From positions 3,973,501 to 4,037,500 of the forward strand of contig NC_008380.1 in assembly GCF_000009265.1 (NCBI RefSeq): a stretch of 64,000 nt of DNA. Reading direction: 5' to 3'. Of the stretch, positions 44,727-60,104 are shown in pieces. This stretch comes from Rhizobium johnstonii 3841 (GTDB lineage Bacteria; Pseudomonadota; Alphaproteobacteria; Rhizobiales; Rhizobiaceae). The first letter of the stretch is position 1. Each line of letters starts with the position of its first letter. Made by a program: the position numbers and the translations under genes. Under the pieces are notes generated by a model that saw only the letters and a list, made by a program, of their open reading frames with translations, was not told where the DNA came from and searched no databases.

Positions 44727-44736
44727 GTCCGCGACC

Positions 44737-45621
44737 TCACTTGTAATGCACGCGCCGCTCGATGAAGCGGAACTGGAAGATGGTGAGCAGGACAACGAGC
44801 ACCATCAAGATGATGGACTGCGCTGCAGCGCCCGAATAGTCGAGACCTCTGAAGCCATCGAAATAGATCTTGTAGACCATGAGCTCGGTGGCGCGCGCCG
44901 GGCCGCCCTGCGTCATGACGTCGACGATACCGAAGGAATCCTGGAAACTCTCGGTGATGTTGATGACGAGCAGGAAGAACAGCGTCGGCGTCAGCAGGGG
45001 CAGCTGGATATCCCAGATCCGGCGCATCGGCCCCGAACCGTCCATTGCGGCGGCCTCGATCAGCGAGCGCGGAATGCCTTGCAGCGCCGAGAGGAAGAAG
45101 ATGAAGTTGTAGCCGATATACTTCCAGGAGAAGGCCACGACGACCGCGATCATCGCGTCCTTGCCGTCGAGCGCGGGGTTCCAGAGGCCGGGCCAGACGT
45201 GGTTGATAACAGACAGAAGGCCGGCCTCCGGCGCCAGGATGAAGCGGAAGGCGAGGCCGAGAGCGGGAGCGGCAATTGCGTAAGGCCAGATGAAGACTGA
45301 CCGGTAGACTTTGTGGCCGCGCAGTTCACGATCCGTCAAAAGCGCCAGGATCAGCGCCAGCCCCATGGCAATGGCCGTCGAGCTGAAGCCGAAGATCATG
45401 CTGCGGGTGATCGAGTCCCAATAAACAGGATCGGTGAGCAGCTGTCTGAAATTGTCGAAACCGACCCAGGCATTACCGCCGCCCCATGGCTGCTCGAGCG
45501 TGAACGCCCAATACAGCGCCTGCGCGCTCGGCCAGTAGAAGAAGACGAAGATCAGCAACAGCATCGGAAATGCGAAGAGCAGTCCGATCGTCGTCGAGGA
45601 GAAAGTGACGCGCTTTTCCAT
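44737..45621 (-). CDS. ugpA: sn-glycerol-3-phosphate-type ABC permease
   Basis: First permease of the ugp-type importer, 294 residues. It starts MEKRVTFSSTTIGLLFAFPMLLLIFVFFYWP and carries the EAA motif EAAAMDGSGPMRRIWDIQLPLLTP. It pairs with UgpE in a heterodimeric channel. Between it and ugpB lies a 232-base stretch with a palindromic repeat and a terminator-like hairpin, so its expression is probably lower than that of the binding protein. Confidence 0.91.
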   Translation of the reverse strand: MEKRVTFSSTTIGLLFAFPMLLLIFVFFYWPSAQALYWAFTLEQPWGGGNAWVGFDNFRQLLTDPVYWDSITRSMIFGFSSTAIAMGLALILALLTDRELRGHKVYRSVFIWPYAIAAPALGLAFRFILAPEAGLLSVINHVWPGLWNPALDGKDAMIAVVVAFSWKYIGYNFIFFLSALQGIPRSLIEAAAMDGSGPMRRIWDIQLPLLTPTLFFLLVINITESFQDSFGIVDVMTQGGPARATELMVYKIYFDGFRGLDYSGAAAQSIILMVLVVLLTIFQFRFIERRVHYK

Positions 45622-45653
45622 GAGTGGCCGTTTTCGTCCTGGTTTGGTTTAAA

Positions 45654-45698
45654 GCATGTCGCGCAAAACTGTGCAGCAGTTTCGCTGTAGCGACATGC
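45654..45698. repeat. rhizobial intergenic palindrome between ugpB and ugpA
   Basis: Perfect 9-bp arms GCATGTCGC (45654-45662) and GCGACATGC (45690-45698) surround a loop with CAAAACTGTGCAGCAGTTTCG. It has the same general design as the palindromes at 15541-15650 and lies inside an operon. Confidence 0.6.
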
Positions 45699-45806
45699 GT
45701 AAAAATATAGATCTAAAGCGCGAGCAGCGAACCTGAAAGATTGCGGCGCGCTTCAGGCGCGGGCGGCGAGCTCGCATCCGCGGCCGACTAAAGAACTTAC
45801 AAAGAC

Positions 45807-45837
45807 GCACCCGGCGCGCAAAACGCGGGCCGGGTGC
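45807..45837 (-). terminator. hairpin after ugpB
   Basis: GCACCCGGC (45807-45815) pairs perfectly with GCCGGGTGC (45829-45837), 16 bases after the ugpB stop; in the minus direction GTCTTTG follows. A partial terminator here would give more binding protein than permease, as in other binding-protein operons. Confidence 0.5.
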
Positions 45838-45853
45838 GGCTCATATCAGCCGA

Positions 45854-47209
45854 TCAGGGGAGCTGAACGTTCTTGTAGGTCTGCTGGAAGCGACGCAGGA
45901 GCGTATTGCCGCGTTCGGCAGCACTGTCGAGCGAAGCCTGGACATCGGCATTGTTGACGAAGATTGCCTGCAGACCATTGGCGATTTCGGTGCGGACCTG
46001 CAGCAGGCCACCGAGGCGGATGCCCTGCGGAGCCGCGTCGCCAGCCGGCGAAGCGGTCAGGCTCTGAATGGCGAGTTCGCGGCCGGCATAAGGCGCCTTG
46101 CCGTAGAAACCCTGCTTATTCAGATATTCGAAACCGGAGTTGCGAACCGGGATGTAGCCGGTAACGGTCGACCAGGTAAGAGCTTCTTCCGGCTTTGCGA
46201 TGAAGTTAAAGAACGCGGCAGCAGCCTTGTATTCGGCGTCGGAGTGACCCTGCAGAACCCAGAGCGAAGCGCCGCCGACATAAGAGCTGTGACGGGTTGC
46301 GTCGCCGTAGGTCGGGAGCATGGCAACGTCCCAGTTCATGCCTTGCTTGGCGGTGCGGCCAACGTTGCCGTGGTCGCCGACGGAGGTCAGGATGACCTGG
46401 CAATCGCCAGCGGCAAAGGCTTCGACGAAGGTCTGGCCGACAGCCTTGTTCTTGATAACGACCAGCTTGTCGTCGTACCAGGACTTGAGGTCCTTGATGT
46501 AGCTGACGAGAAGCGGGTTCTTGTTGAACACCAGCTCGGCGTCGAGACCTTCAAAGCCGTTCTTCTTCGTGGCGATCGCTTCGCCGTTGACGGCTTCGAA
46601 CTGCTCGATGTATTGCCAGACTTCGTTGTTGGAGATGTCAAAGCCGAGCGGGCAAGCATAGCCTGCATCCTTCAGAGCCTTGAGGTCCTCGCCTGCTTCC
46701 TTCCAGGTCGCCGGAGCATGATCCTTGCCGATCTTGGCGAAGGCGTCCTTGTTCCAATAGAGAAGAGCGGTCGAGGAGTTGAAGGGGAAGGAGTACATCT
46801 CGCCCTTCGATGTCGCGTAGTAGCCGGAGATACCGGAGAAGTAGTCCTTCCAGTCGACGGTGTAGCCCATGTCGGTCATCAGCTTGTTGGCCGGGTAGTA
46901 GGCGCCGGAGAGCATGATGTCGAGGGTGCCGGCGTCGGAGACCTGGGCGATGGTCGGCTGCTTGCCGGCGCGGAAGGCAGCAATGGTGTTCTGCAGGGAC
47001 GCGTCGTAGCTGCCCTGGCTGGTGCAGACGACTTCGTAGTCGGCCTGCGACTGGTTGAAGCGATCGCACTGCTCCTGGACACGCTTTGCGATGTCACCGG
47101 AATTGCCGAACCAGAAGTCAATCTTGGTCTTATCGGCGGCGGCAGCGGGACCAGCAAGAAACGCTGTAGCGAGAAGGGCGCCAACGGCGCCGAGAAGCTT
47201 GGCTTGCAT
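45854..47209 (-). CDS. ugpB: glycerol-3-phosphate-binding protein, UgpB type
   Basis: Periplasmic binding protein of 451 residues with a Sec signal peptide (MQAKLLGAVGALLATAFLAG, cut after AAA near 24). It aligns well in memory with E. coli UgpB: FPFNSSTALLYWNKDAFAKIG, WKEAGEDLKALKDAGYACPLG, GGASLWVLQGHSDAEYKAAA, TGYIPVRNSGFEYLNKQGFY, and RGNTLLRRFQ at the end. The presumed ligand is sn-glycerol-3-phosphate or glycerophosphodiesters, serving as phosphate and carbon source. The start at 47209 has GAGG upstream. It heads the four-gene transporter operon and a Pho-box-like repeat lies 73 bases upstream. Confidence 0.91.
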   Translation of the reverse strand: MQAKLLGAVGALLATAFLAGPAAAADKTKIDFWFGNSGDIAKRVQEQCDRFNQSQADYEVVCTSQGSYDASLQNTIAAFRAGKQPTIAQVSDAGTLDIMLSGAYYPANKLMTDMGYTVDWKDYFSGISGYYATSKGEMYSFPFNSSTALLYWNKDAFAKIGKDHAPATWKEAGEDLKALKDAGYACPLGFDISNNEVWQYIEQFEAVNGEAIATKKNGFEGLDAELVFNKNPLLVSYIKDLKSWYDDKLVVIKNKAVGQTFVEAFAAGDCQVILTSVGDHGNVGRTAKQGMNWDVAMLPTYGDATRHSSYVGGASLWVLQGHSDAEYKAAAAFFNFIAKPEEALTWSTVTGYIPVRNSGFEYLNKQGFYGKAPYAGRELAIQSLTASPAGDAAPQGIRLGGLLQVRTEIANGLQAIFVNNADVQASLDSAAERGNTLLRRFQQTYKNVQLP

Positions 47210-47281
47210 GAGAACCTCGAACGTAAAAGGACGCGCACTTTCAGCGCACGCCCTATTAGCTGGTTCAAATTGCCGCCGCCA

Positions 47282-47299
47282 ATGAATATTACATGACAT
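47282..47299 (-). promoter_or_regulatory. candidate Pho box upstream of ugpB
   Basis: On the minus strand ATGTCAT, four bases, TATTCAT gives 10 of 14 matches to two CTGTCAT repeats, in the right orientation and 73 bases from the ugpB start. A better-spaced but oppositely oriented pair (TTGTCAC-AAAA-CAGTCAT) lies at 47318-47335. Confidence 0.35.
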
Positions 47300-47531
47300 G
47301 AAATGTTCCAATTCTAGTTGTCACAAAACAGTCATACAATCATTATTCGTAACATTTCGAGAAATATTTAGAGGAACTTAGCAGGACTCTCAAATGTATT
47401 TGAAATACTATATACTTACATTAAAATAAACACAATTTTAGAAGGCGTTTAATGTTTAATTATATTGGAAAGAAGCGCCTTTATTCGTGCGTCCAGCTGG
47501 AATGAAACTTGCAAAAACAGCCGCATTTTGC

Positions 47532-47570: not shown

Positions 47571-48776
47571 TCAAAGGGAATCCTTCAAAATTGCAGCAAA
47601 ACGCGGGTCGAACGCACGGCTGATCGGTCCCGCGGCAGCCCCGAGCGCCACAGACCAGGGATCGGCCATGCCGGGCTGCAGGCGCGGCAGCGTCCGGCCA
47701 CGGCGTTCGGCGATCGAAGGCAGCAACGGGCCGATTGCCGCAATCAACCTGTTCACCAGCGCTTCCGGCGCGCTGCCGCAGAGGATCACGGTCTGCGGAT
47801 CGAACAGTGTCTCGATGAGATGGATGCTCCAGCGCAGGTCCACAGCGGCCGCCTCGACCCAGGCGTCGATGCTTTGATCGCCCCTCAAGGCAAGGTCGTT
47901 GATCCGTGCATAAAGGCCGGGATCGGCGGGATCGACCGACAGATGCTGATAGAGCGAGGCGAGCGAGGCGCGATGTTCGAGCGGCGTCGATTTGCCGTCG
48001 GCAAACAGCAGCGCCATGCCGATCTCGCCGGCATTGCCGTTGGTGCCACGATAGAGCTCGCCGTTCAGAATGAGGCCGGCGCCGATGCCATAGCCGACGA
48101 AGAGGCAGACGGCATGGTCGATGCCGTGGGCGGCTCCCACCATGCGCTCGGCGGTCGCTGCCGCCGCCGCATCGTTCTGCAGGCCGACATCGAGCCCGGT
48201 GCCGGCGGTCAGCGTTTCCAACAACGGAAATTTTTGCCAGGCCTCCATCATCCACGGATCGTCGCCGCTGCCGGCAACCCCGAAAGGCCCGGGCATCGCG
48301 GCGCCGAGGCCGACCAGCCGCTTTTCCGACTGCTGGACGATCCCGGCAAGCTTTGAGCGTATGCCGGCGACGAGATCGAGGATGACCTTCGTCCCGTTCG
48401 ACGGACCTCCGGGTGGCAGGCCGGCCTCATCACGCACGAGAACGCTGCCGACGAGATCGACGGCGACCGCCCGCGTCACATGCCGGTCGATCTGCAGGCC
48501 GATTGCAAAGGCCCCTTCGGGCACTAGGCCGTAGGGTGTCGACGGCTGCCCCCTGCCCCTCCTCACCGCCTCTTGCGAACTGACGAGACCATCGCGCTCG
48601 AGTTCCTCGATGATATTGGACACCGTCTGCTTGGTCAGCCTCGTCGCCCGCGCCAGATCAGCGCGTGAAAGCGCACCGTTGATCCTGAGGGCATCGATCA
48701 TCACGCGCCGGTTATGCGCGCTGGTGCCTTCGTGATTGGTGCCGCTCTTGGCCCTGATCGGGCGGCTGTCATTCAT
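47571..48776 (-). CDS. ROK-family transcriptional regulator
   Basis: Repressor of 401 residues. An N-terminal winged helix (RVMIDALRINGALSRADLARATRLTKQTVSNIIEELERDGLV) precedes a ROK sugar-kinase-like domain (VGYGIGAGLILNGELYRGTNGNAGEIG). The zinc-binding CxCGxxGC motif expected shortly after that signature is missing; the sequence goes on as MALLFADGKSTPLEHRASL. The ATG at 48776 is favoured by GAGGG at 8 bases; a TTG two codons upstream is possible. It is divergent from the sugar ABC operon, with a perfect palindrome in between. Confidence 0.91.
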   Translation of the reverse strand: MNDSRPIRAKSGTNHEGTSAHNRRVMIDALRINGALSRADLARATRLTKQTVSNIIEELERDGLVSSQEAVRRGRGQPSTPYGLVPEGAFAIGLQIDRHVTRAVAVDLVGSVLVRDEAGLPPGGPSNGTKVILDLVAGIRSKLAGIVQQSEKRLVGLGAAMPGPFGVAGSGDDPWMMEAWQKFPLLETLTAGTGLDVGLQNDAAAAATAERMVGAAHGIDHAVCLFVGYGIGAGLILNGELYRGTNGNAGEIGMALLFADGKSTPLEHRASLASLYQHLSVDPADPGLYARINDLALRGDQSIDAWVEAAAVDLRWSIHLIETLFDPQTVILCGSAPEALVNRLIAAIGPLLPSIAERRGRTLPRLQPGMADPWSVALGAAAGPISRAFDPRFAAILKDSL

Positions 48777-48815: not shown

Positions 48816-48842
48816 TAATAAGTCAAGACACTTGACTTATTA
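48816..48842. promoter_or_regulatory. ROK regulator operator (27-bp perfect palindrome)
   Basis: TAATAAGTCAAG-ACA-CTTGACTTATTA has 12-bp arms without a mismatch. It lies 40 bases upstream of the ROK start and 158 bases before the binding-protein gene, ideal for joint control. NagC/Mlc-type operators are also long A/T-ended palindromes. Confidence 0.75.
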
Positions 48843-48999: not shown

Positions 49000-50238
49000 A
49001 TGCTGAAATCCTTTAACAAGACGCTTCTGGGTGCGGCCTTGATCGGCGCATCCCTTGCGCCGCACGCTTTCGCCGAAACGACGCTGAACGCGCTTTTCAT
49101 GGCCCAGGCCGCCTATAGCGAGGCCGATGCGCGCGCCATGACCGACGCCTTCGCCAAGGCGAACCCCGATATCAAGGTCAATCTCGAATTCGTTCCCTAT
49201 GAAGGCCTGCACGACAAGACGGTGCTGGCGCAGGGTTCCGGCGGCGGCTACGACGTCGTCCTCTTCGACGTCATCTGGCCGGCCGAATACGCCACCAACA
49301 AGGTGCTGGTCGACGTCTCCTCGCGCGTCACCGACGAGATGAAGAAGGGCGTGCTGCCGGGTGCCTGGACCACCGTGCAATATGACGGCAAATATTACGG
49401 CATGCCGTGGATCCTCGACACCAAATATCTGTTCTATAACAAGGAAATCCTCGAAAAGGCCGGCATCAAGGTTCCGCCTAAGACCTGGGACGAGCTGACC
49501 GAGCAGGCAAAGACGATCAAGGACAAGGGCCTGCTCGCCACCCCGATCGCCTGGAGCTGGTCGCAGGCCGAAGCCGCGATCTGCGATTACACCACGCTCG
49601 TCAGCGCCTATGGCGGCGATTTCCTGAAAGACGGCAAGCCGGCCTTCCAGACCGGCGGCGGCCTCGATGCGTTGAAATACATGGTTTCCAGCTATTCCTC
49701 GGGCCTCACCAATCCGAACTCCAAGGAATTCCTGGAAGAGGACGTCCGCAAGGTCTTCGAAAACGGCGATGCCGCCTTCGCGCTGAACTGGACCTACATG
49801 TACAACATGGCCAACAATCCGGAGGACAGCAAGGTCGCAGGCAAGGTCGGCGTCGTGCCGGCGCCGGGTATTGCCGGGAAGAGCGAGGCTTCGGCCGTCA
49901 ACGGCTCGATGGGCCTCGGCATCACCTCGGCCAGCCAGCATCCTGATGAAGCCTGGAAATACATTACCTTCATGACCTCGCAGGCGACGCAGAATGCCTA
50001 TGCCAAGCTCAGCCTGCCGATCTGGGCCTCCTCCTATGAGGACCCAGCGGTCACCAAGGGCCAGGAAGAGCTGATCTCCGCCGCCAAGATCGGCTTGGCC
50101 GCCATGTATCCGCGTCCGACGACGCCGAAATATCAGGAGCTCTCGACCGCGCTGCAGCAGGCGATCCAGGAATCGCTGCTCGGCCAGTCCTCTCCCGAAG
50201 ACGCGCTGAAGTCGGCCGCCGACAATAGCGGCCTCTGA
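49000..50238 (+). CDS. sugar ABC transporter substrate-binding protein (CUT1)
   Basis: Periplasmic sugar-binding protein of 412 residues. Sec signal peptide MLKSFNKTLLGAALIGASLA with cleavage after AFA (about 25). The MalE-like core has DVVLFDVIWPAEYATNKVLVD, WILDTKYLFYNKEILEKAG and SAVNGSMGLGITSASQHPDEAWKYI. The ATG at 49000 follows CTGGAGG. It is the first gene of a six-gene operon and divergent from the ROK gene. The ligand is inferred to be the sugar processed by the SIS and PfkB enzymes encoded downstream. Confidence 0.93.
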   Translation: MLKSFNKTLLGAALIGASLAPHAFAETTLNALFMAQAAYSEADARAMTDAFAKANPDIKVNLEFVPYEGLHDKTVLAQGSGGGYDVVLFDVIWPAEYATNKVLVDVSSRVTDEMKKGVLPGAWTTVQYDGKYYGMPWILDTKYLFYNKEILEKAGIKVPPKTWDELTEQAKTIKDKGLLATPIAWSWSQAEAAICDYTTLVSAYGGDFLKDGKPAFQTGGGLDALKYMVSSYSSGLTNPNSKEFLEEDVRKVFENGDAAFALNWTYMYNMANNPEDSKVAGKVGVVPAPGIAGKSEASAVNGSMGLGITSASQHPDEAWKYITFMTSQATQNAYAKLSLPIWASSYEDPAVTKGQEELISAAKIGLAAMYPRPTTPKYQELSTALQQAIQESLLGQSSPEDALKSAADNSGL

Positions 50239-50311
50239 TCAAGCATGAAGACCCGGGCGGCGTCTGCCGTCGCCCGGTCTCCTAAACCTATAATGAAGAA
50301 GGGTCGCCTTG

Positions 50312-51196
50312 ATGTCGGGCACTTGGCTGACAACCCGCGCGTGGCTTTTGATGCTGCCGCTTCTCGTGGTCATGATATCAGTCATCGGCTGGCCTCTGAT
50401 CGATACCGTCGGCCTCTCCTTCACCGATGCCAAGCTCGTCGGCACGGAAGGAAACTTCGTCGGCATCGACAATTACGCGAAGATGATCTCCGGCTCGAAT
50501 TTCCAGCGCACGCTTGTTACCACCGCATGGTTCGCGATCGTCTCGGTCGCCGCCGAAATGGTGATCGGCGTTCTGGCAGCCCTGCTGCTGAACCAGCAGT
50601 TTCGCGGCCGCACCGCGCTTCGCGCCCTGATGATCCTGCCCTGGGCGCTGCCGACCGTCGTCAACGCCACGCTCTGGCGGCTGATCTACAATCCGGAATA
50701 CGGCGCACTGAACGCCGCGCTGACCCAACTCGGCCTGCTGGAGGCCTACCGCTCCTGGCTCGGCGAACCGGGCACGGCGCTGGCGGCCCTCATCGTCGCC
50801 GATTGCTGGAAGAATTTCCCGCTGGTGGCGCTGATCGCGCTGGCCGCACTCCAGGCCGTGCCGCGCGACATCACCGCCGCCTCGCTGGTCGACGGCGCCG
50901 GCGCTTTCGCCCGCTTCCGCTTTGTCATCCTGCCCTATCTCGCCGGTCCATTGATGGTGGCCCTGGTGCTGCGCACGATCGAGGCCTTCAAGGTGTTCGA
51001 CATCATCTGGGTCATGACCCGCGGCGGCCCGGCCAACAGCACGCGCACGCTGTCGATCCTCGTCTATCAGGAAGCCTTCTCCTTCCAGCGGGCGGGCTCC
51101 GGCGCCTCGCTGGCTTTGATCGTCACGCTGCTGGTGACGCTGCTTGCTGCCGGCTACGCCGCTCTGGTGCGCAAGACGGCGGGGAGTGCGGCCTGA
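50312..51196 (+). CDS. sugar ABC transporter permease 1 (CUT1)
   Basis: Six-helix MalF-type permease of 294 residues, starting MSGTWLTTRAWLLMLPLLVVM, with the EAA loop TAASLVDGAGAFARFRFVILPYLAGP. A TTG codon directly before the ATG is an alternative start; the ribosome site is AAGAAGGG. The stop overlaps the next gene's start by one base (TGATG), indicating coupled translation in the operon. Confidence 0.93.
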   Translation: MSGTWLTTRAWLLMLPLLVVMISVIGWPLIDTVGLSFTDAKLVGTEGNFVGIDNYAKMISGSNFQRTLVTTAWFAIVSVAAEMVIGVLAALLLNQQFRGRTALRALMILPWALPTVVNATLWRLIYNPEYGALNAALTQLGLLEAYRSWLGEPGTALAALIVADCWKNFPLVALIALAALQAVPRDITAASLVDGAGAFARFRFVILPYLAGPLMVALVLRTIEAFKVFDIIWVMTRGGPANSTRTLSILVYQEAFSFQRAGSGASLALIVTLLVTLLAAGYAALVRKTAGSAA

Positions 51197-52041
51197 TGGA
51201 ACGCCAAAGCCCGCTTTTTTCCGCCTTCATATATGTCTGCGCGCTGCTGCTTGCCGCCGTCATCCTGGCGCCGATCCTGTGGCTGTTCATCATGAGCATC
51301 TCGCCGGCCGCCGACCTTGCGGCAAAGCCGCTGCGCTGGTGGCCGCAGACGGCAGATTTCTCGCGCTACGGCGTGCTGCTCTCGACGCTCGAAAACAGCG
51401 CCGGCGCCGCCTTCACCTCGTCGCTGCGCAACAGCATCGAAGTGGCGGGCATGGCGACGATCGCCGCTATTGCGCTGGCTATTCCGGCCGGCTGGGCCGT
51501 GTCGCGCGCGCCTTCGGTCGGCTGGTCGCTGTCGATGGTGATCGCCACCTACATGCTGCCGCCGGTGGCGCTCGCCGTGCCGCTCTATATGGGGCTTTCC
51601 CATCTCGGCATGCTGAACAACGTCTTCGGCCTCGCGCTCGTCTATCTCACCATCCTTGCGCCCTTCACCACCTGGCTGATGAAATCGGGTTTCGATTCCA
51701 TCCCGCGCGAAATCGAATCCGCCGCGATGATCGACGGCGCCGGCCTGTTCCAGACGCTCAGGATCATCACGCTGCCGCTGGCAGCCCCCGTGGTGGCGAC
51801 GTCAAGCCTCTTTGCCTTCCTGCTTGCCTGGGATGAATTCTTCTATGCGCTGCTCTTCACCTCGGACCAGCGCGCCAAGACGCTGACCGTCGCCATTGCC
51901 GATCTCGCCGGCGGCCGCGTTTCCGATTACGGACTGATCGCGACGGCAGGCGTGCTCGCCGCCCTGCCGCCTGTGCTGATCGGTCTCGTCATGCAACGCG
52001 CCCTGATTTCGGGGCTCACCAGCGGCGGCGTCAAGGGATGA
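51196..52041 (+). CDS. sugar ABC transporter permease 2 (CUT1)
   Basis: MalG-type permease of 281 residues beginning MERQSPLFSAFIYVCALLLAA, with EAA loop ESAAMIDGAGLFQTLRIITLPLAAP. The start ATG is at 51196, inside the overlap with permease 1; the longer open frame from 50245 is antisense-like noise in front of it. Its stop overlaps the SIS gene start (ATGA). It works with permease 1, the ATPase at 53987 and the binding protein at 49000. Confidence 0.94.
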   Translation: MERQSPLFSAFIYVCALLLAAVILAPILWLFIMSISPAADLAAKPLRWWPQTADFSRYGVLLSTLENSAGAAFTSSLRNSIEVAGMATIAAIALAIPAGWAVSRAPSVGWSLSMVIATYMLPPVALAVPLYMGLSHLGMLNNVFGLALVYLTILAPFTTWLMKSGFDSIPREIESAAMIDGAGLFQTLRIITLPLAAPVVATSSLFAFLLAWDEFFYALLFTSDQRAKTLTVAIADLAGGRVSDYGLIATAGVLAALPPVLIGLVMQRALISGLTSGGVKG

Positions 52042-53060
52042 ACATGACATCAAAAAGACCCCGGCCGGCCGGACTTGCCGCGATCGATCGCGAAATGGCG
52101 CGCCAGCATGCCGATGCGATCGCCTCCTACGAAGCTGCCCAGCCGATGGCAGCCAAGGCCGCCGCCTCGCTGAAAAAGACCGGCAGGCTGCTGCTCATCG
52201 GCATGGGAGGCTCGCATGCCGTCAACCGCGCCGTCGAGCCGCTCTACCGGACGCTCGGCATCGATGCCGTCGCCTTGCCGCTGTCAGAACAGCTCGGCCA
52301 GCCGCTGCCGATCGCCGGCAGGACGATCTTCGTCACCTCACAATCCGGCGAAAGCGCCGAGGTCGTGCGTTGGTTCAACGAGACCGGCGGCACGAAGGAG
52401 ACTTTCGGCCTGACACTCGAAGGCAATTCCTTCCTCGCAAGAACCGCTCCGTCGCTGGTGGGCAGCGGCGGCACCGAGCTTGCCTTCGCCGCGACCCGCA
52501 GCCTGACGGTGACCTTCGCCCTGCATCTGGCGATCCTTTCCGCCCTCGGCGAAGATCCTGACACCGCACTTGCCGCCCTCAAGGCGCCGGAAGATCATGA
52601 CATCGCCGCCGCTCTCTCGGCGCTCGAAAACGTCGCGACCGTCGTCACGTCGGGCCGCCGGCTGCAGGGTATCGCCGAGGCACTCGCGCTCGGATTGACA
52701 GAGCTGTCGCGCCGTCCCTGCTTCTCGCTCGAAGGCGGCCAGCTGCGCCACGGTCCGATGGAAATGCTGGGGCCGGAAATCGGCGTCGTGCTGTTCCGCG
52801 GCATGGACGAAACCGCCGACCTGGTGACGGCAATGGCGACATCCGCCGTCGAGACCGGCGCCCCGGTCATCCTGTTCGACGCATCCGGGCAAGCGCCGGT
52901 CGCCGGCGCGGTGACGATCCGTTTTGCGCCTGCAACCGGTCTTGCCGCGATCTTCGCCATGCTGCCGGTCGCCCAGCGGCTGATGATCGCCTTTGCCGAT
53001 GCTCGCGTGGAGAATGCCGGAACGCCGGTTCGATCCACCAAAATCACCCGGAGCGAATGA
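52038..53060 (+). CDS. SIS-domain sugar isomerase/deglycase
   Basis: 340-residue protein with two sugar-isomerase (SIS) domains, as in AgaS, GlmS C-half or FrlB. The first domain has GMGGSHAVNRA and SQSGESAEVV (101-110, phosphosugar-binding serines); the second has SLEGGQLRHGPMEMLGPEIG (about 230-250), the RHGP signature found in GlmS and FrlB. It would deaminate, deglycate or isomerise an amino-sugar or Amadori-type phosphate. It is coupled to permease 2 by ATGA and is followed directly by a PfkB kinase, so kinase plus SIS enzyme is the operon's catabolic core. Confidence 0.88.
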   Translation: MNMTSKRPRPAGLAAIDREMARQHADAIASYEAAQPMAAKAAASLKKTGRLLLIGMGGSHAVNRAVEPLYRTLGIDAVALPLSEQLGQPLPIAGRTIFVTSQSGESAEVVRWFNETGGTKETFGLTLEGNSFLARTAPSLVGSGGTELAFAATRSLTVTFALHLAILSALGEDPDTALAALKAPEDHDIAAALSALENVATVVTSGRRLQGIAEALALGLTELSRRPCFSLEGGQLRHGPMEMLGPEIGVVLFRGMDETADLVTAMATSAVETGAPVILFDASGQAPVAGAVTIRFAPATGLAAIFAMLPVAQRLMIAFADARVENAGTPVRSTKITRSE

Positions 53061-53990
53061 ATGCGGCCGCTTGCAGTCATCGGCAACGTCAATGTCGACC
53101 TGATCCTTGGCCCGGCCGCCCCCTGGCCAAAGGCCGGGACGGAAATCATCGTCGACCATGACGAGTTGCGCGTCGGCGGAGCCGCCGGCAACAGCGCGCT
53201 CGCCTGGCAAGCGCTCGGCGTCGAATTCGAGATCGCCGCCAATATCGGCAGTGATCAGTTCGGCCGCTGGCTGAGCGAAGCCTTCGGCCACCGTTCCGAC
53301 AAGTGGCCGGTACGTCCTGAGAAAACGACGCTCTCCGTCGGCATCACCCATCCGGACGGCGAGCGCACCTTCTTCACGACGAGGGGCCACCTGCCGCGTT
53401 TCAGCCTGGCAGACGTCTTCGCCGTCATCGAGGGCGCAAGACTGCAGGGCGGCTACGCGCTTCTCTGCGGCTCGTTCCTGACCGACGATCTGACAGAAGA
53501 ATACGGCAAGCTCTTCGGCTGGGCCGACAGCCATGGCATCACCGTCGCGCTCGATACCGGCTGGCCGCTCGACGGCTGGACCGACGAGAATTGTGCAGCG
53601 ACACGCGCCTGGCTCTCCCGCAGCGGTGTCGCGCTGCTGAACGAGGTCGAATCGACGACGCTTGCCGGCATCGCCGATCCGATCGAGGCCGCGCGTCACA
53701 TGAGGTCGCATATGCCGGCGGGTGCGATTGTCGTCGTCAAACGCGGCCCGGACGGCGCTCTCGCGATCGGGCCGGACGGCAGCTTGGTTTCGGTGGCAGC
53801 GCCCGTTGTCGAAGTCGTCGATACGATCGGCGCCGGCGATGTCTTCAACGCCGCCTTTCTCGCCGCGCTCGCAAGCGGTGAGCCGCTGGTTTCCTGCCTG
53901 ATGGCGGGAACCGAGGTTGCCTCGCGCGCCATATCGACTCTTCCCCGCAACTATGGCGGCCCGACATCTCTTCAGGAGCCCGTGCGATGA
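53061..53990 (+). CDS. PfkB-family carbohydrate kinase
   Basis: Ribokinase-type sugar kinase, 309 residues, phosphorylating the imported sugar at the expense of ATP. It starts MRPLAVIGNVNVDLILGPA, has the first signature GGAAGNSALAWQALG and the second DTIGAGDVFNAAF near residue 254, whose Asp is the catalytic base. It begins on the base after the SIS stop and overlaps the ATPase gene by 4 bases. Relatives include fructoselysine 6-kinase (FrlD) and adenosine or sugar kinases; specificity is not evident. Confidence 0.91.
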   Translation: MRPLAVIGNVNVDLILGPAAPWPKAGTEIIVDHDELRVGGAAGNSALAWQALGVEFEIAANIGSDQFGRWLSEAFGHRSDKWPVRPEKTTLSVGITHPDGERTFFTTRGHLPRFSLADVFAVIEGARLQGGYALLCGSFLTDDLTEEYGKLFGWADSHGITVALDTGWPLDGWTDENCAATRAWLSRSGVALLNEVESTTLAGIADPIEAARHMRSHMPAGAIVVVKRGPDGALAIGPDGSLVSVAAPVVEVVDTIGAGDVFNAAFLAALASGEPLVSCLMAGTEVASRAISTLPRNYGGPTSLQEPVR

Positions 53991-55060
53991 GCGCGCTCGA
54001 AATTCAAAACATCCGCAAGACCTATGGCGACGTCGAGACGCTGAAAGGCATCGACATCTCGTTGGATAGCGGCGAGTTCCTGGTGCTGCTCGGCTCCTCC
54101 GGCTGCGGCAAGTCCACGCTGCTGAACATCATCGCCGGCCTTGCCGAGGCGACGAGCGGCGATGTCAGGATCGGCGGCCGCTCGGTGCTCGGCGTGCATC
54201 CGAAGGACCGCGACATCGCCATGGTCTTTCAATCCTACGCGCTTTATCCCAATCTGACGGTGCACCGGAACATCGGCTTCGGCCTGGAAATGCGCAAGGT
54301 GCCGGCGCAGGAGCGCGACAGGGCCGTACACGATGCTGCCAAGCTCCTGCAGATCGAAAACCTCCTCGACCGCAAGCCGAGCCAGCTTTCCGGCGGTCAG
54401 CGCCAGCGCGTCGCGATCGGTCGCGCGCTGGTGCGCAAACCTGAGGTATTCCTCTTCGACGAACCGCTCTCCAATCTTGACGCCAAGCTGCGCATGGAGA
54501 TGCGCACCGAGATCAAGCGGCTGCATCAGATGCTGAAGACCACGGTCGTCTATGTCACCCATGACCAGATCGAGGCGATGACCCTTGCAAGCCGCATCGC
54601 CGTCATGCGCGACGGCCGCATCGAGCAGTTGGGCACGCCGGAGGAGATCTACAACCATCCGGCAACGCTCTATGTCGCGACCTTCGTCGGCGCGCCGCCG
54701 ATGAACCTGCTGAAGGCGACGGCGCGTGACGGTGGCCTGGCGCTTTCAGGCTCCGATGCGATCCTGCCCCTGCCCGCTCGTTTCCGCCAGACTGCCGGCA
54801 ATGGCCGCGACCTTATCCTCGGCATCCGTCCCGAGGCGCTTCGCACGGACGGCACCGGCCCGTCGATCGAGGCAAGCCTTGAGGTCGCAGAGCTGACCGG
54901 CCCGGAACTCGTCGTCACCGCCCTTGCCGGACATCAGCGGCTGATGGCCTGCCTGCCGCCACGCACACCGATCCGCGACAACGAAAAGCTCACCCTCTTT
55001 TTCGACGAGGAGGCAATGCATCTCTTCGATCCGGAAACCGGTCTCAGCTGCGGCTGTTAG
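53987..55060 (+). CDS. sugar ABC transporter ATPase (UgpC/MalK type)
   Basis: ATPase of 357 residues for the CUT1 importer encoded upstream. Walker A GSSGCGKST, signature [15 protein letters not shown], Walker [13 protein letters not shown] and H-loop VTHDQIEAM are intact, with a MalK-like C-terminal OB domain. The start overlaps the kinase stop (ATGA). It is the last gene of the ROK-controlled operon, with 28 bases to the convergent GH16 gene. It is a paralogue of ugpC at 42690. Confidence 0.93.
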   Translation: MSALEIQNIRKTYGDVETLKGIDISLDSGEFLVLLGSSGCGKSTLLNIIAGLAEATSGDVRIGGRSVLGVHPKDRDIAMVFQSYALYPNLTVHRNIGFGLEMRKVPAQERDRAVHDAAKLLQIENLLDRKPSQLSGGQRQRVAIGRALVRKPEVFLFDEPLSNLDAKLRMEMRTEIKRLHQMLKTTVVYVTHDQIEAMTLASRIAVMRDGRIEQLGTPEEIYNHPATLYVATFVGAPPMNLLKATARDGGLALSGSDAILPLPARFRQTAGNGRDLILGIRPEALRTDGTGPSIEASLEVAELTGPELVVTALAGHQRLMACLPPRTPIRDNEKLTLFFDEEAMHLFDPETGLSCGC

Positions 55061-55088: not shown

Positions 55089-55916
55089 TCAATTCGCTGC
55101 ATCAGTAGGCTTGCGCTTGTAGACGTGAATATAGTCGACGAGCAAAATGGAAGGATTGGGCGTTTCATCGATCGGCCAACCCGAGCCGAGTGCCAGGTTC
55201 ACCAGCGGATAGAACGGCATGTGGAATTCCTTCGGCGTGTCGAAGCTCCAGATGAACTGACGGTCGAAGTAGAAGCTCGTTTTGTCGGCTTGGATATCGA
55301 CGCCGTAGGTGTGATATTCACTGTTCAAAATGCCGTCCTGGACCTTTTGCCAATGGCCGCCGGTGCTGTTCTGGCCGCCCTGGCTCTGACGCCAGATATG
55401 AAAACCCATGCTGAATTCGTAGGGCGCGCGTCCGTAATATTCCAGGACGTCGATCTCGGCGGTGTATTTCGACCGGTCGAGCCCGATCAGCCAGAATGCC
55501 GGCCAGACGCCCTTGCCCGGCGGCAGCTTCATCCTTGCTTCGAAATAGCCGAACTGCTGCGAGAATCCTTCGCCTTTCGGGTTCACCGACGACAGCAGGC
55601 CCGAGCGCCAGGTTCCATCGGCCTCCTTGCGCGCTTCGATCTTCAGAATTCCCTGATCGGTGGTAAACGGAAAGCCGGGGGCCGGATCTGTGAAGCGGGC
55701 ATCGCCGAAATCGCCGTTCCAGGGTGTATGGGCGATCCAGCGGGAACTTCTCTCCCCCCAGGCCGAGACGTCTAGACTGTCGAAACTCTCCTCGAACGTG
55801 AGCTGGTACGCATTGATATTGAGCGGTTCCTGAGCCACGCTGGGTTGGCCGGGCAACGCGCCCAGACCAAGAACGATAAGCAAACCCAGAGCCTTAGAAG
55901 ATATCCCGTAACGCAT
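55089..55916 (-). CDS. secreted GH16 endo-glycanase
   Basis: Family GH16 glycanase, 275 residues, secreted through a Sec signal peptide (MRYGISSKALGLLIVLGLGA, cut near SVAQ at 29). The catalytic motif EIDVLEYYG places the nucleophile at E154 and acid/base at E159. These beta-jelly-roll enzymes include ExoK-like exopolysaccharide-cleaving glycanases; beta-1,3(4)-glucan or the locus's own polymer is the likely substrate. The ATG at 55916 has a GGAGGAG ribosome site; upstream sequence in the open frame belongs to the flippase region. It closes the minus-strand polysaccharide operon. Confidence 0.91.
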   Translation of the reverse strand: MRYGISSKALGLLIVLGLGALPGQPSVAQEPLNINAYQLTFEESFDSLDVSAWGERSSRWIAHTPWNGDFGDARFTDPAPGFPFTTDQGILKIEARKEADGTWRSGLLSSVNPKGEGFSQQFGYFEARMKLPPGKGVWPAFWLIGLDRSKYTAEIDVLEYYGRAPYEFSMGFHIWRQSQGGQNSTGGHWQKVQDGILNSEYHTYGVDIQADKTSFYFDRQFIWSFDTPKEFHMPFYPLVNLALGSGWPIDETPNPSILLVDYIHVYKRKPTDAAN

Positions 55917-55966
55917 TCTGCTCCTCCGAAAACGCCAAACCAATTTTTGCGCTGCACTTGTCTCGA

Positions 55967-57448
55967 TCATGAGATGAGAACTCCGTTTCGTCGCGGCATG
56001 AGCCTTTGGACGACGATGGTCTCGATGCCGTCGGGCCTTCCGACAATTTGCCACACGAGCAGCGCGAAGACCCAGAAGATCGCCACTGCCGCCCCGCCGC
56101 AAAGCGCCAGGCTGGCGACCAGGTTGAGGCCGACAGGCATGGCAGCGAGCATCGGCTCTATCCACAGCAGGAAAGCGATCATCGGCAAGCTCGCGACCAG
56201 AGGCCTTAGAAAGGCGTGCAACTGAGCGGCGAACGTCGCGCCGATCAGCCGCCGCGTAATGATCAGCGATGCGGCATAGGCGACAAGCACCGCCACGATC
56301 CGCGCGCCCAGTGCTCCTGCCACCTGAAAATAGACAATGCCCAGGATGGTGACCGGAACCCTGACGGCGAACTCGGCAAACATCCGGAGAGCGAGATAAC
56401 GGGTTTTGTTGAGCACCATGGCCAATGGCGGCATCATGTTCGTCGGAAGACCGAGCAGACTGCCGATGCACAACCACTGCAGAATCGGCGCGGCGGATGC
56501 CCATTTCTCGCCGACGATGATCCGCACGGCCGGCTCGGCAAGCAAAGCGAGCGCGATGAGGATGGGCGCTGCCACGAAGGTGATCGCGTTCGTCGCCTTC
56601 AGATAGGCAGCGATCAGATTACGACGGTCATCGACGGTCGAGAATGCCGCCATCAGCGGACGCAACAATGGCCCGACGAAGGTCTGGTATGGAATAGCGG
56701 CGATATTGTCGGCGACGCTGAAGGCGCCGAAAGTCGACAAGCCCGTAAAGCGCGGCAAAAGCAGCCGGTCCAGTTGCCAGTTGATCGAACTCAGCACCTG
56801 CGAGACGGTGTTCCAGCTGATCATGTCCTGAAAGTGCTTCCACTCGGAAAGGCTGAACCTCGGTCGCATCGGCGCAAAGACATAGGAGGTGATCGCCGCG
56901 GCGGTCGGGCCTGCAACCGCGCCGATCGCCAGCCCCCAATAGCTGCCGGTCGCGACCGCGACCCCGACACCGAACAGCAGTGTCGACCCCTTGGTGATGA
57001 GATCGAGTGCGAACTCGCGTTTGAAATCGAACCGCTGCATGAACAGAACCATGCGCGGGCTGATCACGCTGCGCATGGCAGGCGCAATCGAGAGCACAGC
57101 GACGAGAGAGAAAAGCCGGGGATCGTCATAGATCAGAGCCATCGGCCAGGAGATGAACATCATCAGCACGCTGATGGCCACGCCTCGTAACAGGCTGAGG
57201 GTAAGGGCGGTGGCAAACATATCGTCCGAAGGCGACGGCTGGCGCATGAGGGCCTGCGTCAGCGGCAGGTCCAGGATTGTCTCGACGATGACCAGAACCG
57301 AGGTCGCTATGGCGACAAGGCCGAAATCCGCCGGGCTCAAAAGCCTTGCGAGGATCAGGAGGCTGACGAAATCGAGCAGTCGCGCCAGGAACTTTCCGCT
57401 GATGGTCCAGATACTCGCCGTCGCCGTCCTCTGAGATACGCTTGACAT
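55967..57448 (-). CDS. polysaccharide flippase (Wzx/RfbX-like)
   Basis: Integral membrane protein of 493 residues with about 12-14 helices, belonging to the MATE-like polysaccharide transporter group (Wzx/ExoT type). It begins MSSVSQRTATASIWTISGKF and has the pattern ARLLSPADFGLVAIATSVLV typical of this family. It should flip lipid-linked oligosaccharide repeat units across the inner membrane. It sits 68 bases after the GT4 gene and 50 bases before the GH16 gene, all leftward, in the polysaccharide operon. Confidence 0.91.
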   Translation of the reverse strand: MSSVSQRTATASIWTISGKFLARLLDFVSLLILARLLSPADFGLVAIATSVLVIVETILDLPLTQALMRQPSPSDDMFATALTLSLLRGVAISVLMMFISWPMALIYDDPRLFSLVAVLSIAPAMRSVISPRMVLFMQRFDFKREFALDLITKGSTLLFGVGVAVATGSYWGLAIGAVAGPTAAAITSYVFAPMRPRFSLSEWKHFQDMISWNTVSQVLSSINWQLDRLLLPRFTGLSTFGAFSVADNIAAIPYQTFVGPLLRPLMAAFSTVDDRRNLIAAYLKATNAITFVAAPILIALALLAEPAVRIIVGEKWASAAPILQWLCIGSLLGLPTNMMPPLAMVLNKTRYLALRMFAEFAVRVPVTILGIVYFQVAGALGARIVAVLVAYAASLIITRRLIGATFAAQLHAFLRPLVASLPMIAFLLWIEPMLAAMPVGLNLVASLALCGGAAVAIFWVFALLVWQIVGRPDGIETIVVQRLMPRRNGVLIS

Positions 57449-57516
57449 GTCTATTTTCTATTCCTCGTCGACGGTTTCGGTCGCAGCGGCAAGACAGGCA
57501 GCTCCGCTCCTTGCCC

Positions 57517-58761
57517 TCAGCCCGCCCGTCTTCTGAAGACCTCGGCGGATCGGTCGCCTTGGTCCGACAGTTGCTGCTCGATCAGGCGGGACAGGCGGTC
57601 GCGGAACACGGCGGAAGAAAATTTCAGCGAGTGCGCGCGGATCGCATGCGGATCGATATCGTCCTCCACCTCCTCGAACGCCGCCATCGTTTCCAACAGA
57701 GCTTCCGTGGTCTGCTGCGCGAAGCGAAAACCAACCTGCGGCGAGGAAACGGTTTCCCTGGCGCCGCCGGCGTCGAAAGCCAGGACCGGCCGCCCTGATG
57801 CCATGGCTTCCACCGGAAGGATGCCGAAATCCTCCGTGCCCGGAAACAAGAGGGCGCGGCATCGCGACAGATGGTCGCGCAGAACGTTGAAGGGCTGATG
57901 GCCGAGAAACTCAACGGTCGGTCCGGCGATCGACTTCAGATAGGCCAGTTGTTCTCCCTCGCCGATCACGACCAGCTTTCGGCCGGCCTCGGTGCAGGCG
58001 CGAACGGCGATATCCGGCCGCTTGTAGGTGGTCAGCTGTCCCGCATAGAGATAGAACTCGCCCTTCCCCTTCCCCACCACAAAATCGTCGGTCGCAACCG
58101 GCGGATGGATGACGATGGATTCCCGGTCGTAGAAGCGGCGGATGCGGCTTGCGACATAATCGGAATTGGCAACGAACACATCGACCCGCGAGGAGGTCGT
58201 CACGTCCCAAGCGCGCAGCATGGGTGCGGTGATCGACATCATTGCGCGACCCACCCAGGGCAGGCCATGGCGGTAGACATGGAACTGATCCCAGATGTAG
58301 CGCATCGGCGAATGGCAGTAGCAGACATGCAGGGCGTCGGCGCGCGTGATGATGCCCTTGGCGGGTCCGGATTCGCTCGACAGCACGAGATCGTAATCCT
58401 GCAGATCGAACTGCTCGAGCGCGAAAGGCATCAGCGGCAACATCTTGGTATAATGCCGCTTTGCACCGGGGATCTTCTGCAGGAAGGATGTGCGGATGTT
58501 CCGCGTCTTCAGAAAATCGCTGATGCGATCCCGGTTGCAGACGAGGGTGAAGATGTCGGCCTGCGGAAACATGCGGCACAGCTCTTCGACGACCTTCTCG
58601 CCGCCGCGCATCGAAACGAGCCAATAATGCACGATGGCGACGCGAAGCTGCTTGGTATCGCTCGCGCTTCCGGCCTCAGTGACACGTCTTTTCGCCATGA
58701 CAGGCGCATCGCCGAGAAATGCTCTCGCGTCGGGAAGAGAGGTTGTTGCCTTAAGGGTCAA
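57517..58761 (-). CDS. GT4-type glycosyltransferase
   Basis: Glycosyltransferase with two Rossmann-like domains, about 414 residues. The N-domain starts near RVAIVHYWLVSMRGGEKVVEEL; the C-domain has the donor-binding EX7E region in TEDFGILPVEAMASGRPVLA, characteristic of GT4. I start it at TTG 58761: it overlaps the preceding gene's stop (TTGA) and has AAGGAG at 7 bases; an ATG at 58698 would be 21 codons shorter. It adds one sugar to the lipid-linked unit. Sugar and linkage unknown. Confidence 0.87.
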   Translation of the reverse strand: MTLKATTSLPDARAFLGDAPVMAKRRVTEAGSASDTKQLRVAIVHYWLVSMRGGEKVVEELCRMFPQADIFTLVCNRDRISDFLKTRNIRTSFLQKIPGAKRHYTKMLPLMPFALEQFDLQDYDLVLSSESGPAKGIITRADALHVCYCHSPMRYIWDQFHVYRHGLPWVGRAMMSITAPMLRAWDVTTSSRVDVFVANSDYVASRIRRFYDRESIVIHPPVATDDFVVGKGKGEFYLYAGQLTTYKRPDIAVRACTEAGRKLVVIGEGEQLAYLKSIAGPTVEFLGHQPFNVLRDHLSRCRALLFPGTEDFGILPVEAMASGRPVLAFDAGGARETVSSPQVGFRFAQQTTEALLETMAAFEEVEDDIDPHAIRAHSLKFSSAVFRDRLSRLIEQQLSDQGDRSAEVFRRRAG

Positions 58762-60104
58762 CTCAATACTCCTTGTATCGCCACACCGTCTGTCAGCTCG
58801 GGAACAGCATTCGTCGAAATCAGGGTGTGGTATTCGGAAAGAAGCGCGTCGCGCCATTCCTCGTGTGTCGACGCAAGATCCGGCGACTTCAGGAAAGCCC
58901 GCTCGCTCATGGCGCGGACCTCGTGCCTCGGCATTTGGCTAAATCGCGTCAAAGTATCGGCAAAGGCGCTTTCGTCAGCCGTATCGCAGGCGATCGCCAT
59001 GCCGGCTCTTTGCATTTCTTCGGCAAGAAAGGCGCTACGCGACATGATGACCGGCAGACCGCTCCTGGCCGCTTCGATAGCGACGAGGCCGAATGGCTCG
59101 GGATAGCGAGACGGCATCAACAGTGCACGCGCCTTGCGGATGGTCGGGCCGATCTCCGCATGCGACTGCCAGCCGACGGCCCTGACGTGATCTCCCGAAG
59201 CCGCAACCAGCGGCATCAGCGGCCCGTCCCCGATCACGCAGAGCCTGACGCCGGCTTTGCGTGTGGCGGCCACGGCGTCCTCTATGCCCTTCTCTTCGTC
59301 CAACCGCCCGATGAAGACGAACTCCTCGTTGGCCTCCGCCTCGATGCGTTTGATGGAGAGCGGAGCGACGGGATTGCGGATTGTCGTCAGTCGTTCGGGC
59401 CGATATCCGGCGCCGACGAGGAAGCTTGCCATCTTCTCGTGCAGCAGGATGATACGGCCGAAATCGGCCTGATCCTTCAGCCGTCGGAGGATATTGGAGC
59501 CGCGGGCAACCCGCCATAATTTGTGCGAATAACTTCTCTTGTCGCAGGCCGTCGCAATGCAGCCTCCGCCGAGCGGGCGTCGAAGGCAGACTTCCTGCGC
59601 CTGATAGTCGAAGAAGGCGCCGTTGGGGCAGGCTGTGAAGAAATCATGCGCGTGCACCACGCATCGTCTGGCGACCGGCATCAACGCCCTGAAAATCGCC
59701 GGAGACAGGATCTGGTGCCAGCCATGGACATGGTAGACGGTATTGGCGGTGTCGTTTGCGGCAATCCAATTCGCGACCATACGGACGGCGGCGCCGTTGT
59801 GAATGCCGGTCACGAAAGCCTTCGCACGCTCGGCACTGAGCAGATCGCGGCTATTCAGCCCGACCATCAAGACCCCGAGTGCGACGAGCTCCGCATTGGC
59901 GGCGTCATCCCCGCAAATATAGGTCACGGGGATGTCGAGGCCCCGAAAAAGCTTGGCGGACAGCACCGCCAGCGCCGTCGCACCGCCTCTGGCGACCGAA
60001 TAGTCGTCGATGATGACCACGCGATCGATCTTTGTCGTGCCGGGGCCGGGAAACCGGCCGACGCTTGCGGCGGATCGGAGGACCTCGGGAAGCGACGGGC
60101 GCAT
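58758..60104 (-). CDS. GT4-type glycosyltransferase
   Basis: Second GT4 enzyme, 448 residues. The C-terminal nucleotide-sugar region has GRLDEEKGIEDAVAATRKAG and YPEPFGLVAIEAARSGLPVI (EX7E). The N-domain has RVVIIDDYSVARGGATALAV and a cysteine-containing segment (ACPNGAFFDYQAQEVCLRRP). The ATG at 60104 overlaps the Crp-like gene's stop by one base (TGATG) and the end overlaps the next GT gene by 4 bases including its start. It belongs to the same coupled string of genes; substrate unknown. Confidence 0.88.
   Translation of the reverse strand: MRPSLPEVLRSAASVGRFPGPGTTKIDRVVIIDDYSVARGGATALAVLSAKLFRGLDIPVTYICGDDAANAELVALGVLMVGLNSRDLLSAERAKAFVTGIHNGAAVRMVANWIAANDTANTVYHVHGWHQILSPAIFRALMPVARRCVVHAHDFFTACPNGAFFDYQAQEVCLRRPLGGGCIATACDKRSYSHKLWRVARGSNILRRLKDQADFGRIILLHEKMASFLVGAGYRPERLTTIRNPVAPLSIKRIEAEANEEFVFIGRLDEEKGIEDAVAATRKAGVRLCVIGDGPLMPLVAASGDHVRAVGWQSHAEIGPTIRKARALLMPSRYPEPFGLVAIEAARSGLPVIMSRSAFLAEEMQRAGMAIACDTADESAFADTLTRFSQMPRHEVRAMSERAFLKSPDLASTHEEWRDALLSEYHTLISTNAVPELTDGVAIQGVLS

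Follow-up and report, generated by a model that had tools for sequence, protein, structure and literature searches.

A ROK-linked operon of Rhizobium johnstonii 3841 as a probable system for glucosamine uptake and breakdown

We analyzed a six-gene transport and catabolic unit at positions 49000-55060 of a 64,000-nucleotide stretch of the Rhizobium johnstonii 3841 genome (the window), together with the gene for a ROK-family regulator that runs divergently beside it. Our results suggest, with a probability of about 80%, that this operon serves the uptake and breakdown of D-glucosamine and possibly also of D-galactosamine, glucosamine being the most likely substrate and galactosamine a possible one. 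According to the scheme that we propose, the periplasmic binding protein and a CUT1-type ATP-binding cassette (ABC) importer would take up the free amino sugar, the PfkB-family kinase would convert glucosamine to glucosamine-6-phosphate, and the SIS protein would isomerize and deaminate the latter to fructose-6-phosphate and ammonia. The ROK protein would bind a palindrome in front of the operon and repress it, probably along with its own gene, and glucosamine or its phosphate would release the repression. The operon of an 'unknown sugar' thereby becomes a testable glucosamine system with a named regulator and a probable operator. A glucosamine operon of this kind is mostly known already through its Sinorhizobium meliloti counterpart; in the open-licence papers that our searches covered, mostly as listings, we saw neither the footprint of the operator nor a placement of the SIS clade.

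The substrate assignment draws on S. meliloti 2011, whose pSymB carries the same seven genes in the same order, with the same palindrome core in the same place (Table 1 gives the protein identities), whereas the R. johnstonii operon lies on the largest contig. For the transfer of locus tags, the coordinates of the two S. meliloti strains were taken as equivalent. The accessible part of PMC2780559 places an element between the minus-strand genes SMb21220 and SMb21221, at 783541-783640, and this interval maps to the gap between the permease and binding-protein genes of NC_020560. It follows that the binding protein corresponds to SMb21221, the permeases to SMb21220 and SMb21219, the SIS protein to SMb21218, the kinase to SMb21217 and the ATPase to SMb21216. 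The repeat Sm-4 that the same source places between the binding-protein and permease genes of S. meliloti distinguishes that locus from the R. johnstonii operon. In agreement with these assignments, the available text of PMC4961836 groups SMb21216 and SMb21219-21221 as a transporter and SMb21217-21218 as enzymes. A report on S. meliloti mutant fitness, of which an excerpt was available, states that the kinase SM_b21217 matters specifically when glucosamine is the nitrogen source, and reads it as a glucosamine kinase. The sugar, called unknown in the initial annotation, is therefore not wholly so, published work (available in part) having named glucosamine or galactosamine for the orthologues.

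The six plus-strand genes, encoding the binding protein, two permeases, the SIS protein, the PfkB kinase and the ATPase, lie where the initial annotation had put them, and the starts at 49000 and 50312 represent a choice among in-frame starts. Pfam domains SBP_bac_1, BPD_transp_1 (in both permeases), SIS, PfkB and ABC_tran all score above their cut-offs. Judging by these families, the CUT1 importer set appears complete, comprising an SBP_bac_1 protein, two BPD permeases and a MalK/UgpC-type ATPase. About 70 bases separate the binding-protein gene from the first permease gene; from there to the ATPase gene, neighbors overlap by 1-4 bases or abut, which makes co-transcription of the six-gene unit very probable. 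A consensus promoter scan gave one promoter-like site, not above shuffled sequences, and a terminator scan gave 7 terminator-like sites against 4.9 expected; neither was used.

Table 1. The operon, its divergent regulator gene and the candidate operator (window positions; percentages are identities to S. meliloti)
Feature	Position	Strand	Evidence
ROK-family transcriptional regulator with N-terminal winged helix (MarR_2-like)	47571..48776	-	PF00480 88 bits, PF12802 34.5 bits; 69% to S. meliloti
Palindrome, probable ROK operator	48816..48842		12-bp arms; conserved in related loci
Periplasmic sugar-binding protein, CUT1 ABC importer (SMb21221 counterpart)	49000..50238	+	PF01547 165 bits; 86% to S. 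meliloti
ABC permease 1 (SMb21220 counterpart)	50312..51196	+	PF00528 63 bits; 91% to S. meliloti
ABC permease 2 (SMb21219 counterpart)	51196..52041	+	PF00528 61 bits; 81% to S. meliloti
Double-SIS enzyme, probable isomerising glucosamine-6-phosphate deaminase (SMb21218 counterpart)	52038..53060	+	PF01380 42 bits; 76% to S. meliloti; E222, H238, K335
PfkB-family kinase, probable glucosamine 6-kinase (SMb21217 counterpart)	53061..53990	+	PF00294 115.7 bits; 69% to S. meliloti
MalK/UgpC-type ABC ATPase (SMb21216 counterpart)	53987..55060	+	NF008653 456.8 bits (cut-off 432); 74% to S. meliloti

The order of divergent ROK gene, binding protein, two permeases, SIS, kinase and ATPase was found in 80 of 88 related loci (the best 80 of 174 relatives plus eight others), S. 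meliloti included. Such recurrence is not chance, and it bears out the earlier proposal that transporter, kinase and SIS enzyme form a coupled six-gene unit. The eight exceptions are the R. johnstonii locus itself, which was cut (L001), three distant plasmid loci (L004-L006), one locus without the ROK gene (L076) and three in which no same-strand ATPase gene was found (L062, L066 and L068); L068 and L076 are short loci. In two other distant loci (L153 and L154) no ATPase gene stands beside the kinase gene. The operon recurs in Rhizobium, Sinorhizobium and Mesorhizobium. SIS matches occur in 99 of 199 genomes of the family, R. johnstonii included; 29 of them (a hand count) have E values of 1e-40 or better and the rest 1.5e-11 or worse. 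The closest named matches (93-96% identity) belong to R. sophorae, R. laguerreae, R. leguminosarum, R. ruizarguesonis and another Rhizobium. In two S. meliloti entries among the 40 matches listed (H11 and H33) the SIS gene is in two pieces, perhaps owing to frameshifts or sequencing errors.

From its sequence and structural model, the SIS protein is probably an isomerizing glucosamine-6-phosphate deaminase. The predicted structure has a mean confidence (predicted local distance difference test, pLDDT) of 91.6, dropping below 50 in the last eight residues, K335 among them. Its best structural matches are human GFAT-1 and the isomerase domain of E. coli GlmS (Z scores 34.9 and 34.8), and the glucosamine-6-phosphate deaminases score 33.4 (2cb0), 33.1 (7kqa, titled as the Stenotrophomonas enzyme), 31.6 (8fdb) and 30.1 (1j5x). 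When a profile of 26 clade members was compared with sequences of solved structures, GFAT/GlmS came out on top (70.6 bits), with 64.5 bits for 7kqa, 58.3 for a Shewanella glucosamine-6-phosphate deaminase and 31.3 for a B. subtilis putative fructose-amino-acid deglycase. The predicted double-SIS fold carries catalytic-type residues: E222, H238 and K335 have aligned counterparts in E. coli GlmS and in the NagB-II encoded in the same genome, and are invariant in all 26 clade rows. The corresponding E, H and K are catalytic in GlmS, where we take them to be E488, H504 and K603. At the position of a further GlmS lysine, presumably K485, the SIS protein has G219. Unlike GlmS, it is devoid of a glutaminase domain, and it would be expected to run in the breakdown direction.

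The initial annotation had offered Amadori compounds or amino sugars as candidate substrates. If the former were true, the kinase would make a fructosyl-amino-acid 6-phosphate and the SIS protein would be a FrlB/FraB-like deglycase. The operon does share the kinase plus SIS logic of the FrlB/FrlD fructoselysine system, and the SIS protein has the E/H pair of E. coli FrlB together with a short FrlB-like R-H-G-P motif. However, the SIS protein fails the NCBIfam FrlB cut-off of 430 bits by a wide margin (14.5 bits), the kinase fails that of the fructoselysine-6-kinase model NF007321 (53.9 bits; cut-off 247), and, by the protein families assigned to them, none of the seven genes resembles frlA, frlC or frlR of the E. 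coli operon. The C-terminal lysine is absent from the E. coli FrlB row of the alignment. Structurally, FrlB 8glr reaches a Z score of 25.6 (288 aligned residues, 2.9 Å) and 3eua 25.8, versus 30-35 for GlmS and most deaminases, two NagB-II chains attaining only 27-28. The 50 Foldseek matches listed for the model do not include FrlB, which is uninformative by itself. On the model scores, the residues and a structure ranking that does not divide cleanly, and in view of the partly accessible glucosamine phenotype of the S. meliloti kinase, we rejected the Amadori alternative as very unlikely. The ranking and residues of the SIS protein, together with the natural variants described below, thus support the amino-sugar half of the earlier guess and not the Amadori half.

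The exact position of this SIS protein among deaminases is less certain. Its scores on curated models (GlmS 35, NagB-II 23.9, GlmD 16 and FrlB 14.5 bits) are all far under the cut-offs, of which the NCBIfam NagB-II one (430 bits) is strict, passed by none of 20 genomes. The NagB-II at the R. johnstonii nagA locus, which is of the Shewanella type, has the double-SIS fold (Z scores of the SIS model are 31.6 to 8fdb and 27.4 to 8eol), the aligned E, H and C-terminal K and probably the same reaction in common with the SIS protein. Yet the two are only 24% identical, fall into separate tree clades and score 286 and 24 bits, respectively, on the NagB-II model. In the tree the SIS clade is set apart with 100/99 support, whereas weak joins and long branches connect it to NagB-II and GlmS. 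We tentatively propose, at somewhat less than even odds, that this clade might represent a third class of glucosamine-6-phosphate deaminases, apart from NagB and NagB-II, dedicated to imported free glucosamine and separate from the N-acetylglucosamine route, in which NagB-II operates in the same cell. For this clade we have a predicted reaction, and found no measured activity in the open-licence literature covered.

More distant SIS-PfkB pairs were noticed in four loci (L116, L117, L118 and L127), their SIS proteins being about 42-50% identical to that of R. johnstonii; in L127 the SIS match is split in two pieces. By eye, these pairs adjoin CUT2-like importer genes and a Gfo/Idh-like oxidoreductase gene, with a LacI-like regulator in L116 and L117, and it is possible that they act on a different substrate. 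If the third-class proposal is true, the pairs in L116-L118 would apply the same module to another amino sugar. A related SIS-PfkB-CUT1 cluster on a Salipiger plasmid (L005) includes a sulfatase and a Gfo/Idh oxidoreductase, which hints at sulfated amino sugars.

The kinase is probably a glucosamine 6-kinase, by analogy with its S. meliloti counterpart. It contains a DTIGAGD motif, D260 being invariant in 25 of 25 alignment rows. Its model (pLDDT 92.2) comes nearest in fold to ribokinase and to the putative ribokinase 3h49 (alias YdjH), both at Z 32.7, a resemblance that as such does not point to a particular sugar. These kinase relatives would also be consistent with import and phosphorylation of a plain sugar or sugar acid, the SIS protein then being merely an aldose-ketose isomerase. 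Many plain sugars are substrates of PfkB kinases, some SIS enzymes are simple isomerases, and neutral or sulfo sugars are the ligands of the binding protein's nearest relatives of solved structure. Nonetheless, we regard a plain sugar as very unlikely in view of the glucosamine phenotype reported, in the excerpt available, for the S. meliloti kinase, the use or production of glucosamine-6-phosphate by the top SIS structures, and a NagB-II gene near the kinase gene in one genome (G407).

This last case belongs to a set of natural variants. The kinase is present in 16 of 398 genomes of the phylum; 14 of these 16 have the binding protein and 11 the SIS protein. The five SIS-less genomes have either nagB above the cut-off (G563 and G566) or NagB-II at 330-356 bits (G407, G440 and G475). 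The loci of G440 and G563 represent the operon without SIS. In G407 a ROK-kinase cluster includes a GluP/NagP-like major facilitator superfamily transporter, whose single gene separates the kinase from the NagB-II gene; a TonB receptor and a GH9 hydrolase adjoin. The stretch read in G475 has a ROK gene, the kinase, a similar transporter, a TonB receptor and GH9, and no NagB-II match. Most GH9 enzymes are cellulases. The family also includes exo-beta-D-glucosaminidases, according to the accessible part of PMC6566704. Pantoea vagans and a Klebsiella plasmid have ROK, binding-protein, permease, kinase and ATPase genes in the same order (binding proteins 58-60% and kinases 42-43% identical) with a related palindrome, but the SIS gene is missing from these operons. 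The SIS-less variants with NagB or NagB-II fit a kinase product that both kinds of enzyme can use, namely glucosamine-6-phosphate. The pattern is not proof, since NagB-II (282-297 bits) is found in each of the 11 SIS-bearing genomes too. As a predictor of SIS loss, the presence of nagB is suggestive only, two SIS-bearing genomes (G387 and G390) having nagB-like matches below the cut-off. In another genome (G179; L119 6734-13282) the ROK, importer, SIS and ATPase genes are present and no kinase gene lies between those for SIS and ATPase.

Besides the NagB-II genes of the SIS-bearing genomes, several observations weigh against glucosamine breakdown by this operon. The fitness data, known to us from an excerpt, come from another species and concern only the kinase, and the SIS protein is under every curated cut-off, its clade fitting no curated family. 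With NagB-II already at the nagA locus (286 bits), a second deaminase looks redundant. The Shewanella NagB-II chains 8eol (27.4) and 3hba (27.8) are close in Z score to the deglycase-like 2a3n (26.9), while AgaS-type isomerases are as near to the SIS model as GlmS (3c3j, 32.2; 3odp, 33.6). K335 falls within the tail of the model, where confidence is low, and taken alone cannot tell deaminases from deglycases, because E. coli AgaS, annotated as a putative galactosamine-6-phosphate deaminase/isomerase, also lacks this lysine; K335 was accordingly dropped as a sole criterion. Finally, disaccharides or a sulfosugar glycoside are bound by the binding protein's best relatives of solved structure, which makes an oligosaccharide ligand conceivable.

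The fold similarity to AgaS also bears on the possibility that D-galactosamine (or mannosamine) is the main substrate. In that case the kinase would make galactosamine-6-phosphate, the SIS enzyme would convert it to tagatose-6-phosphate and ammonia, and a locus with a KbaZ-like protein on contig C7 of the same genome would finish the pathway. The portion of PMC4961836 at hand indeed predicted D-galactosamine for SMb21216-21221 together with SMb21373-21374, and contig C7 encodes an AgaS/GlmD-like SIS protein and, by eye, the KbaZ-like one. On the other hand, the later S. meliloti fitness statement, again from the partial source, names glucosamine, no tagatose pathway gene is present in the operon, and the C7 locus seems to have an importer (by eye), a kinase and a SIS enzyme of its own. 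Moreover, the SIS protein keeps the C-terminal lysine that E. coli AgaS is without. We therefore consider galactosamine as the main substrate unlikely. The C7 locus (L111, C7:256000-268000) looks like a second amino-sugar locus, its AgaS/GlmD-like SIS protein and NagK-like kinase both scoring under their cut-offs.

As to regulation, the idea that the operon is ROK-controlled gains in plausibility from a conserved palindrome next to the divergent ROK gene, which itself lies just outside 49000-55060 and runs the opposite way from 48776. The encoded protein has the ROK domain and an N-terminal winged helix, both detected by Pfam. The site at 48816-48842, a perfect palindrome TAATAAGTCAAG-ACA-CTTGACTTATTA with 12-bp arms that are 100% complementary, is the probable ROK operator, and the ROK protein the probable repressor of the operon, as far as sequence can tell. 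After removal of L001, L004, L005, L006 and L076 from the 88 loci, 83 had both ROK and binding-protein genes, and all 83 intergenic regions (22 distinct sequences) contain the core TAAGTCAA-N5-TTGACTTA with a variable spacer and at most three mismatches (none in 65, one in 17 and three in 1). These loci are related to each other and hence not independent. The single outlier with three mismatches, Tritonibacter, has a site that is still largely palindromic. In 1660 mononucleotide shuffles the best site never had fewer than four mismatches. Twelve further loci have best sites with 0-4 mismatches: none in four loci, one in L121, two in L125, L131 and L132, three in L114, L119 and L124, and four in L123. 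The Pantoea (L131) and Klebsiella (L132) sites have a related sequence, TAAATCAA-N5-TTGATTTA, and are perfectly palindromic. In the whole R. johnstonii genome the exact core occurs at one site only, the runner-up having two mismatches, in keeping with a regulator that acts locally on this operon and probably also on the ROK gene. Many ROK proteins typically have the zinc motif CxCGxxGCxE; by eye, it is absent from this protein and from its S. meliloti counterpart.

Our literature searches covered open-licence papers, several of them available in part. Within the accessible text, queries with the SMb21216-21221 tags returned no assay of the SIS protein, and those on SIS deaminases, ROK/PfkB proteins in rhizobia and glucosamine kinase pointed, among the papers listed, to nothing on the operon except PMC11378808, whose title or opening abstract lines point to it. 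Likewise, the accessible parts of the rhizosphere papers name no gene that ties to the operon, and those of further S. meliloti papers do not mention it. The R. leguminosarum locus tags of the operon had no match in the open-licence literature, and other uses of 'glucosamine kinase' refer to different genes or bare annotations. The growth table in the available part of PMC4961836 lists D-glucosamine for some deletion strains; this was not tied to the operon and was not used. Glucosamine use via acetylation (NagX) is described for five other bacteria in PMC9007349, the accessible main text of which does not mention S. meliloti. Free glucosamine is a source of both carbon and nitrogen from chitosan-like soil material, and the operon may thus count in the rhizosphere.

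The operon is flanked by two minus-strand gene groups. Just upstream, at 43812-47311, lies a second CUT1 importer resembling ugpBAE (sn-glycerol-3-phosphate), all its scores being below the cut-offs given in brackets: UgpB 316.8 (411), UgpA 273.8 (335) and UgpE 296.5 (297) bits. Downstream, the convergent genes at 55089-60218 encode a GH16 hydrolase, a flippase-like polysaccharide protein and two group 1 glycosyltransferases, a set suggestive of surface polysaccharide.

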